From Gammaproteobacteria bacterium Gsub (GTDB taxonomy: Bacteria; Pseudomonadota; Gammaproteobacteria; PS1; Pseudothioglobaceae): DNA of 64,000 nt. Positions within the stretch are counted from its first letter, which is position 1; every line of letters begins with the position of its first letter. Location: NCBI GenBank assembly GCA_002007405.1, contig JYIN01000011.1:1-64000 (forward strand), given 5' to 3'. The notes beneath the pieces are model-generated. The model was given only the letters and a program-made list of their open reading frames with translations, searched no databases and was not told where the DNA came from. Positions 28,100-30,139 of the stretch are shown one piece after another. The position numbers and the translations under genes are program-made.

Positions 28100-28792
28100 T
28101 TAAACAACTCTAAATCTTAATCTTCCCTTAGTTAAATCAATCATCACTTGGCGGTTACAAAGATGGGTTGGAGGGGGGTTAAATTGCCTATAAACACCAG
28201 CAATAGAGACTAATTGTGGGTTAAACGATCGGATAAAAATAGTGGCAGTTTTATCACCAGAAATGCCAGCAAATACTTTGCCACAAACTTCTTTATACGC
28301 AGCAATACTGCCATTTGCTAAAATTTCGGCATCTGCCCTAACTTTGTCTAACAACACCAAATCACCATTCTTTGCCAGCACTTGCATTGATGAGCGGACT
28401 TGGTTGTTTATAATTTTGGGTGGTAGCGGGGCTTTGTTTTCTATAGGTGGAATCGGCTCTTGCTGGAGTTCTTTGTTTTTACTTACACTTGGTAACTCAC
28501 TAAATATTGCTAAACCCGAAAACTTAGCAAAATCAATTATCTCTTGTTTATTAGTGCGCACGCCAACTACATAGATGTTATTTCTCCCCAATATTTCAAC
28601 TAACACTGCCAACTCATTCGCCTGAAAATGTTTGTTGACAATTTCTAAAATAACTGGCGCCTGATTAAATACTTTGTCATCTGCTAAATCGGCAATTTTA
28701 ATAGCTATGTCATCAACATTATTGCTCAATATTTTGAGTGTATAAAGCGCCTCAGTTTGAATTTTAACTTCAATGATAGGGGTTTTCTTCAT
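28100..28792 (-). CDS. minC: Septum site-determining protein MinC
   Basis: About 230 residues from the ATG at 28792, which gives the usual MinC start (MKKTPIIEVK); a longer frame would overlap the upstream gene. The N-terminal FtsZ-inhibiting domain is followed by a Pro-rich linker (PIPPIENKAPLPPK) and the C-terminal beta-helix (NGDLVLLDKVRADAEILANG, AGISGDKTATIFIRSF) that binds MinD. MinCD blocks Z-rings away from mid-cell. minD and minE, normally next to it, are not in the window. Confidence 0.92.
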   Translation of the reverse strand: MKKTPIIEVKIQTEALYTLKILSNNVDDIAIKIADLADDKVFNQAPVILEIVNKHFQANELAVLVEILGRNNIYVVGVRTNKQEIIDFAKFSGLAIFSELPSVSKNKELQQEPIPPIENKAPLPPKIINNQVRSSMQVLAKNGDLVLLDKVRADAEILANGSIAAYKEVCGKVFAGISGDKTATIFIRSFNPQLVSIAGVYRQFNPPPTHLCNRQVMIDLTKGRLRFRVV

Positions 28793-28797
28793 CTGTT

Positions 28798-29196
28798 TTA
28801 AGTTTGCCAACTTTGAGTACAATCCAAAAAATACCAAACCCGACGCATGCCTGTTTCCCCGCTTAACATAAGATTCAACGGGGTTTTATATTTGAATTTT
28901 TTAACTGGTCGCCGAAGCCAAATGCCGCAATATTCTTGATGGGTTGGGTAAGTTGTGGCTAAGGATTCAAAAATACCCAGAATCATCTCACTTTGATTGA
29001 TTAAATGCTGGTCAAAGTCAAATGTTTTATCGCCCCTTCGATACAAATACAAATGCCTTGCTTTAAAAGATTTTGGCAAACCCAGTAAATCTGCTTGTTC
29101 TTGGTCTGTCAACTTCCATGTTTCCATAATTTGGGTCAATTGATGTGTTAGTTGGATTTTTTGTTGGGTGTTAATTGTGTCAATGTTTATCATCAA
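28798..29196 (-). CDS. Xre/MbcA/ParS-type antitoxin-like protein, no toxin adjacent
   Basis: 132 residues. The N-terminal half (LTQIMETWKLTDQEQADLLG) reads as a helix-turn-helix of the Xre-like antitoxin type. The C-terminal half (LGIFESLATTYP, GIWLRRPVKKFKYKTPLNLM, LSGETGMRRVWYFLD) matches the DUF2384 toxin-binding domain layout of ParS/MbcA proteins. The family usually pairs with a RES-domain NAD-consuming toxin, which would follow it. Here the gene sits between tolA and minC, 5 bp from minC, with no RES gene nearby. It could be a solitary regulator. The assignment rests on motifs recalled from the family, not on a search. Confidence 0.7.
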   Translation of the reverse strand: MMINIDTINTQQKIQLTHQLTQIMETWKLTDQEQADLLGLPKSFKARHLYLYRRGDKTFDFDQHLINQSEMILGIFESLATTYPTHQEYCGIWLRRPVKKFKYKTPLNLMLSGETGMRRVWYFLDCTQSWQT

Positions 29197-29202
29197 TTGT
29201 TT

Positions 29203-30135
29203 TTAATTCACCCTAAAATAAAACAAAATTTCACGATCAAATACACTTTTATCTGGGGCAGGTGGCAACGGTGATGCTTTATATACAGCACGCTCAATAG
29301 AATCCTTGAAAGATTTTGCCCTGACGCCACTGCCAATATTGCATGATTGTAAATTGACACTGGCGACCGTACCATCAAGCGCTTGCAAAATATAAACATC
29401 ACAACCCCAATCGTCTTGTGCACCTTGGTAACGCCATTTTTCTTTTACTCTGGTAGCAATTTGGTTAATGTAGTTATGTTTAAGTTCATTTAATAGATCT
29501 TCTTGAACAACTGCTCTTTCGTGGTCTTGTTCTTCTTGTATGGCTTGGGTTAATGTGCGTTCCTGTTGTTCTTTTTTAAATTTTTTAGCTTCAATGCTTC
29601 TATTTTTTTCAATTTCTTGTTTTTTCTTTTCCGCTTCTTTGGTTTTTTTCTCAGCTATTTTTCTCTGCTCTTCTGCTACTTTTTTTTGTTTTTCAGCTTC
29701 TTTGGTTTTTTTCTCAGCTATTTTTCTCTGCTCTTCTGCTACTTTTTTTTGTTTTTCAGCTTCTTTGGTTTTTTTCTCAGCCAAAATTTTGGCTTTTTCT
29801 TCTTTTTTAGTTTTTTCTTTAAGGCGGTTAATCTCTCTTTGTTTTTTATAACGCTTATCTTCTAACTCTCGCAAACGCTTTTCTTTAAGTCGCATTTCTA
29901 AAGCTTTTTTCTTTTTTATATCTGCTAAGCGTTGCTTTTCTTTGTTGATTTCTGCTAAGTCAATGGTAATGGCTTTAGGCACACTAAATTCGGGTTTTTT
30001 AAGTTCTTGTTGCTTTATTTCCCAGGATTGAAATCCTGTAAAAAATAAACCAACGAGCAAAATAAGATGCAATAATACTGCCACCCAAAAGGCGATGGGG
30101 TGGTTTTTAGCAAGTTCTGGGAGTTTGATAGGCAT
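29203..30135 (-). CDS. tolA: TolA, envelope-spanning protein of the Tol system
   Basis: About 310 residues from the ATG at 30135; the longer frame from 30183 would overlap tolR. One N-terminal TM (about 18-36) contacts TolQR. A long Lys/Glu/Ala helical domain (about 55-190) contains a perfect 21-residue repeat unit. The C-terminal TonB/TolA domain (about 205-310) has the usual two Cys (DWGCDVYILQ and LQSCNIGSG). It transmits proton-motive energy to Pal at the division site. Order here is tolQ-tolR-tolA; tolB and pal do not follow, replaced by the antitoxin-like gene and minC. Confidence 0.94.
   Translation of the reverse strand: MPIKLPELAKNHPIAFWVAVLLHLILLVGLFFTGFQSWEIKQQELKKPEFSVPKAITIDLAEINKEKQRLADIKKKKALEMRLKEKRLRELEDKRYKKQREINRLKEKTKKEEKAKILAEKKTKEAEKQKKVAEEQRKIAEKKTKEAEKQKKVAEEQRKIAEKKTKEAEKKKQEIEKNRSIEAKKFKKEQQERTLTQAIQEEQDHERAVVQEDLLNELKHNYINQIATRVKEKWRYQGAQDDWGCDVYILQALDGTVASVNLQSCNIGSGVRAKSFKDSIERAVYKASPLPPAPDKSVFDREILFYFRVN
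29633..29781 (-). repeat. 63-bp perfect tandem repeat inside tolA
   Basis: Two identical 63-bp units (29633-29695 and 29696-29758) plus a partial third (to 29781) encode KTKEAEKQKKVAEEQRKIAEK twice within the helical stalk of TolA (unit is 21 residues, shifted by the reading start). Perfect identity at DNA level suggests recent duplication or ongoing slippage. Confidence 0.93.
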
Positions 30136-30139
30136 TTTA

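Follow-up and report, generated by a model that had tools for sequence, protein, structure and literature searches.

A toxin-free relative of the MbcA/ParS/Xre antitoxins between tolA and minC in Thioglobaceae, and a small protein with which it may act

Why does a protein with the fold of an antitoxin stand, without a toxin, among genes of the cell envelope and of cell division? The window, by which we mean the whole stretch of DNA analysed (64,000 nucleotides), comes from Gammaproteobacteria bacterium Gsub, whose genome of 1.37 Mb lies in 14 contigs. The gene in question, here called X, and its surroundings have the following features.

28798..29193, minus strand: X, a protein of the Xre/MbcA/ParS fold without a toxin, 131 aa (open reading frame, Pfam and profile-profile matches, relatives)
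29032..29166, minus strand: helix-turn-helix (HTH) region of X, about residues 10-54 (alignment and profile-profile comparison; Pfam HTH below cut-off)
28966..28968, minus strand: codon of E76 of X, aligned with K in 17 of 17 RES-adjacent antitoxins
28825..28920, minus strand: PF09722-like C-terminal domain of X (Pfam profile search)
28807..28821, minus strand: codons C125-T-Q127-S-W129 of X, the end motif of the orphan branch, replacing x-x-R-G of RES-adjacent antitoxins
29203..30138, minus strand: tolA, the upstream neighbour of X, ending at 29203
28100..28792, minus strand: minC, the downstream neighbour of X, starting with the ATG at 28792 after a 5-bp gap from the X stop

The listed open reading frame of X begins with a TTG at 29196, one codon upstream of the ATG at 29193. 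The ATG is the likelier start, because many relatives have a TAATG in which the stop codon of tolA overlaps the start codon of X. There is almost no intergenic space upstream of X, and the tolB gene of this genome is located elsewhere (G000:C4:55517-56752).

By Pfam, the C-terminal domain of X is a borderline case: PF09722 scored 25.4 bits in the genome search and 24.1 bits with the 132-aa protein alone, the cut-off being 24.5. The HTH match (PF20432, E 0.011) lies below its cut-off. When the profile of X was aligned by hhalign with that of RES-adjacent antitoxins, the match reached 99.9% (E 2e-33) and spanned both the HTH and the C-terminal domain. A profile of X and its far relatives matched MbcA (6fkg) in the PDB with an E-value of 0.003, and Xre (6gw6, E 0.056) and NatR (8qnl, E 0.18) more weakly. 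Compared profile to profile, the PF09722 domain is clear, and the same alignment indicates an N-terminal Xre-like HTH, in which K44, R46, L48 and Y51 are invariant across the order. An AlphaFold2 model of X, made with 8 sequences, was poor (pLDDT 46). PADLOC and PHROGs searches gave nothing convincing for X or for c0, a small protein described below, and the viral contigs searched for relatives of X yielded 0.

No RES toxin gene adjoins X, and a genome-wide profile search found no RES domain (PF08808) in this genome. X also falls short of the NCBIfam family for RES/Xre antitoxins (NF049845; 20.6 bits, cut-off 90). The preliminary description had presented X as a toxin-less HTH and DUF2384-like protein of the Xre/MbcA/ParS type, placed between tolA and minC, 5 bp from minC, in an operon of envelope and division genes, and all of this stands; the block is tol-min-glyS. 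The open reading frame is a genuine gene and no chance occurrence: in the order as a whole (Thioglobaceae/SUP05), X was found in 48 of 83 genomes including its own, the other copies being at most 74% identical to it. X is represented in 8 of the 11 genera and in 36 of the 49 assemblies of good quality, and is mostly single-copy and chromosomal; its named relatives belong to uncultured SUP05 and Candidatus Vesicomyosocius records, which places the organism in the SUP05/Thioglobaceae group. One match (G049) is frame-split, as are the adjoining glyS and ruvB, and one genome that is 98% complete (G001) has neither X nor c0. RES was found in 2 of the 83 genomes, so in almost every genome with X the protein cannot be serving a RES toxin.

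Relatives outside the order were drawn from a class-wide sample of 369 genomes, 115 of which matched the order's X profile; 60 class loci were taken with their flanks, besides the loci from searches. Relatives scoring above 60 bits comprised 75 distinct sequences (the fragmentary rows L083 and L089 are excluded from this orphan set), none of them directly beside a RES gene; of the 21 below 59 bits, 17 were RES-adjacent. Of the 111 X-like genomes, 80 were examined for RES, and 31 of these encode it somewhere. Thioglobaceae formed one group in a phylogenetic tree (support 100), which separated orphans from RES-adjacent antitoxins with a support of 90; the tree was made by a quick method from few columns, the orphan split is not starred, and of the four 'weak' rows that lack RES, two group with the orphans and two with the RES-adjacent antitoxins.

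The orphans also differ at the positions that hold the toxin. In NatR, R70 and R119 are described as conserved toxin-interface residues (PMC11535050), and by residue counting along the 8qnl chain they fall on positions 76 and 127 of X. Position 76 is K in all 17 RES-adjacent rows, against D, E, Q or H in orphans (E76 in X), with K or R in 0 of 75 orphans among the letters listed. At position 127, every one of the 17 RES-adjacent rows has R, versus 1 of 75 orphans (Q127 in X). The orphan replacements are E/D for K/R at 76 and Q/Y/F for R at 127, and orphans end in Cys-x3-Trp: 72 of the 75 rows have Cys125 and 73 have Trp129. Toxin-contact residues of the NatR type appear not to be conserved in X, which lacks several of the tested features that define the antitoxin family, yet has the same fold. 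Plasmid records gave 227 matches for a RES-type antitoxin, 2 for a far orphan, and 0 each for X and c0; both plasmid matches of the far orphan score better with the RES-type query, and the far orphan had 0 matches in phages. The far relatives of X are located at loci other than tol-min. Judged from these sequence comparisons, the relatives of X appear to be a separate, toxin-free branch of the antitoxin fold that extends across the class.

Two further observations were made at the far loci. In G261 (L148), the genes antitoxin, RES, c0 and X follow each other on the same strand, so that c0 and an orphan X come directly after a RES-Xre pair. Another gene that recurs in the vicinity of far orphans, c2, is HTH-like and was found at 5 of 41 loci (L126, L128, L131, L134, L139); in L131 and L134 it is part of a longer protein that resembles, by eye, a ferredoxin/FNR-type reductase.

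The gene that keeps company with X is c0, which encodes a protein of about 95 aa (about 98 aa in distant genomes). Its copy in the genome of the window lies as follows.

G000:C4:39922-40197 (L189:5423-5698): c0, about 92 aa, on contig 4, outside the window and unlinked to X

Pfam matched 0 of 12 c0 members, NCBIfam gave 0 for three c0 proteins, and the PDB gave one match at chance level. An ScpA-like name for c0 was dropped, as no Pfam match supports it. In the genome of the window, c0 follows nagZ (named by eye from sequence). The uvrD gene at L189:3243-5403, also identified by eye, consists there of two frames that overlap, whereas in relatives it is a single open frame of about 725 aa; this split is a frameshift or an assembly error.

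Within the order c0 occurs in 49 of 83 genomes: 45 have both genes, 3 have X alone, 4 have c0 alone and 31 have neither. Among the 369 genomes of the class sample, counting as orphan X any match above the best RES-adjacent score (107 bits), the corresponding numbers are 85, 9, 17 and 258, giving a Fisher odds ratio of 143, a value that is not corrected for common descent and assumes that both searches drew the same 369 genomes. Genomes with both genes occur in 44 families, whereas 2 families have X but never c0 and 6 have c0 but never X. Several genomes with c0 alone (G183, G197, G312, G398, G409, G265) have X-like matches below the threshold, so X and c0 may in fact disagree less often than these counts suggest.

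Could it be that X and c0, though both conserved, have nothing to do with each other and are distributed alike through common descent and joint loss? We consider this unlikely, even though the association was computed without a correction for phylogeny and the two genes are unlinked in those genomes of the order in which their places were compared. The pair could be lost jointly in streamlined lineages, as in genus g4, where none of the 29 genomes has either gene. The presence of both genes in genomes of so many families argues against mere shared descent, as does their arrangement: in 19 genomes, which belong to 9 families, X and c0 adjoin each other on one strand, no more than 200 bp apart, and c0 is the upstream gene in 17 of these. 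Of 41 loci in distant genomes, 8 have c0 immediately before X, and a ninth has it further off. Across 20 further genomes the contexts of c0 were diverse, with no fixed neighbour.

A different explanation starts from the locus itself and holds that X regulates or couples its tol-min-glyS operon, through autoregulation or through control of the envelope or of division. The synteny in related genomes, which the preliminary description had proposed to check, speaks for it: minC is present in 46 of the 83 genomes, and X and minC are adjacent on the same contig in 42 of the 42 genomes that have both, by coordinates compared by hand and counting G036, where minC is a relic. The overlap of the X start with the tolA stop in many relatives points the same way, as does the joint absence of X and minC from 27 of the 29 genomes of g4, a genus in which no genome has X. 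The two genes do part elsewhere. X occurs without minC in G033, G034, G037, G042, G044 and G082 (in G082 near a contig end), and minC without X in G014, G028, G041 and G047.

The first four of these genomes are the smallest symbionts of the set, clam symbionts of 1.0 Mb each. The frame of X is open in all four, whereas minC is reduced to scraps in all four. In two of them (G034 and G037; L072 and L073), none of tolQ, tolR and tolA is intact and stops interrupt the frame of tolB, and the Tol system has apparently been lost there. The median dN/dS (NG86) of X in the four genomes is 0.19, compared with 0.18 for glyS, 0.11 for hemA and 0.31 for ruvB, and seven other genomes of this genus give 0.12 for X. 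X is under purifying selection in these reduced genomes and is not a decaying remnant. Likewise, nagZ is a relic in all four while c0 is intact, with dN/dS values (0.195, and 0.096 in eight others) close to those of X. Only in G041 has a genome of genus g5 clearly lost X: a short frame-shifted relic of X, read from sequence, runs into a broken minC (L077:5850-5960) in a symbiont genome that is complete and has kept c0. This shows that X has been dispensable at least once.

Control of division meets a further obstacle. No ftsZ (TIGR00065) was found in any of the 83 genomes of the order, whereas 13 of 14 control genomes were positive. Division without FtsZ has been reported for Candidatus Thioglobus autotrophicus (PMC6509183) and for Ruthia and Vesicomyosocius (PMC4164004), in line with this result, which makes a role of X via an FtsZ-MinC axis unlikely. 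The 46 genomes with minC, in which no ftsZ was found, contain a MinC that lacks its usual target. Given also that the far relatives of X lie at other loci, regulation confined to the neighbouring operon seems doubtful to us, and the targets of X are probably not solely tol, min or division genes. The proposal that X was co-opted as a regulator therefore survives in part: a role other than that of antitoxin gains support, while control of the adjacent division and envelope genes is weakened because X outlives minC in four of four and tolQRA and tolB in two of four of the smallest genomes.

X might instead form a toxin-antitoxin-like pair with a toxin of another kind, possibly c0. It has an antitoxin fold, a small gene adjoins it in 19 genomes, and many solo antitoxins are known according to the relevant passages of Makarova et al. 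2009 (PMC2701414). Such pairing is nevertheless quite improbable, since X is mostly single-copy and chromosomal, most genomes have one c0 match, neither X nor c0 matched plasmids and the far orphan did not match phages, both genes are retained in streamlined symbionts, and the 17 genomes with c0 alone would contain a free toxin. Least credible by far is that a RES-Xre pair decayed and left X as its last part, kept by chance, as the preliminary description had also suggested: its homology to antitoxins and the lack of RES in its own genome would fit, but recent decay is refuted by its constraint (dN/dS 0.12-0.19, with intact frames among the pseudogenes of 1.0-Mb genomes), and both its retention in 48 of 83 genomes and the class-wide toxin-free branch with replaced toxin-contact residues run counter to it. 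The toxin may have been lost long ago, prior to the origin of the branch, which would be compatible with the reading that we prefer.

That reading, to which we give an even chance, is that X is a working, vertically inherited regulator of the DNA-binding type that belongs to a toxin-free branch and most likely acts with c0. X is probably a working regulator and not a leftover, because it has no toxin, its toxin-holding residues are gone, its toxin-free family is widespread and c0 is its usual company. The two proteins likely constitute a regulatory module. In the mechanism that we infer, the HTH of an X dimer would bind operator DNA, in keeping with the basic residues kept around positions 44-53. 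The face that holds the toxin in antitoxins would be remodelled in X (E76, Q127, C125, W129) to hold c0, and c0 would set the stability of the X dimer or its affinity for DNA, in the way that the toxin acts on P. putida Xre, which by itself is reported to bind DNA unstably without RES (PMC12204516). C48 of c0 is kept in 12 of 12 members, and one may speculate that it and the kept C125 of X might form a contact or a redox switch.

We would go further only tentatively, at somewhat less than even chances: X and c0 may together make up a regulatory complex not described before, in which the toxin-binding face holds a small constitutive partner, and which is needed even in 1-Mb symbionts that have no ftsZ, have lost minC and have partly lost Tol. 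Candidates for such a complex of X-type protein and c0 occur in about a quarter of the sampled gammaproteobacterial genomes. Proteins of the X fold carry database names such as 'MbcA/ParS/Xre antitoxin family'. If the proposal is true, a class-wide set of proteins annotated in this way are not antitoxins and come with a partner absent from every library searched, and X would exemplify how a toxin-antitoxin fold can become a core component of the cell. As X and c0 survive in some of the family's smallest symbiont genomes after their neighbours died, the pair would then be needed for something basic.

How does X compare with known systems? FtsZ-less division in SUP05 (PMC6509183) concerns the same group of organisms, but the main text of that paper has 0 occurrences of minC and nothing observed here ties X to this mode of division. 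It was proposed long ago that homologues of antitoxins which stand alone may act as regulators of other operons (PMC2701414). Our reading of X shares this idea, and the passages on solo antitoxins there name neither the X branch nor a conserved partner gene. Titles and the starts of abstracts, a scope that most subscription journals fall outside, gave no description of the separate orphan branch, its Cys-x3-Trp end, its retention after the loss of min and tol, or c0 as a partner. The closest relatives by fold are the RES-Xre antitoxins (PF09722/COG5642: MbcA, P. putida Xre, NatR), which share with X the full-length HTH and DUF2384 fold. Unlike them, X has no RES partner, has replaced toxin-contact residues and a C-x3-W end, and is chromosomal rather than plasmid-borne, at a fixed housekeeping locus.
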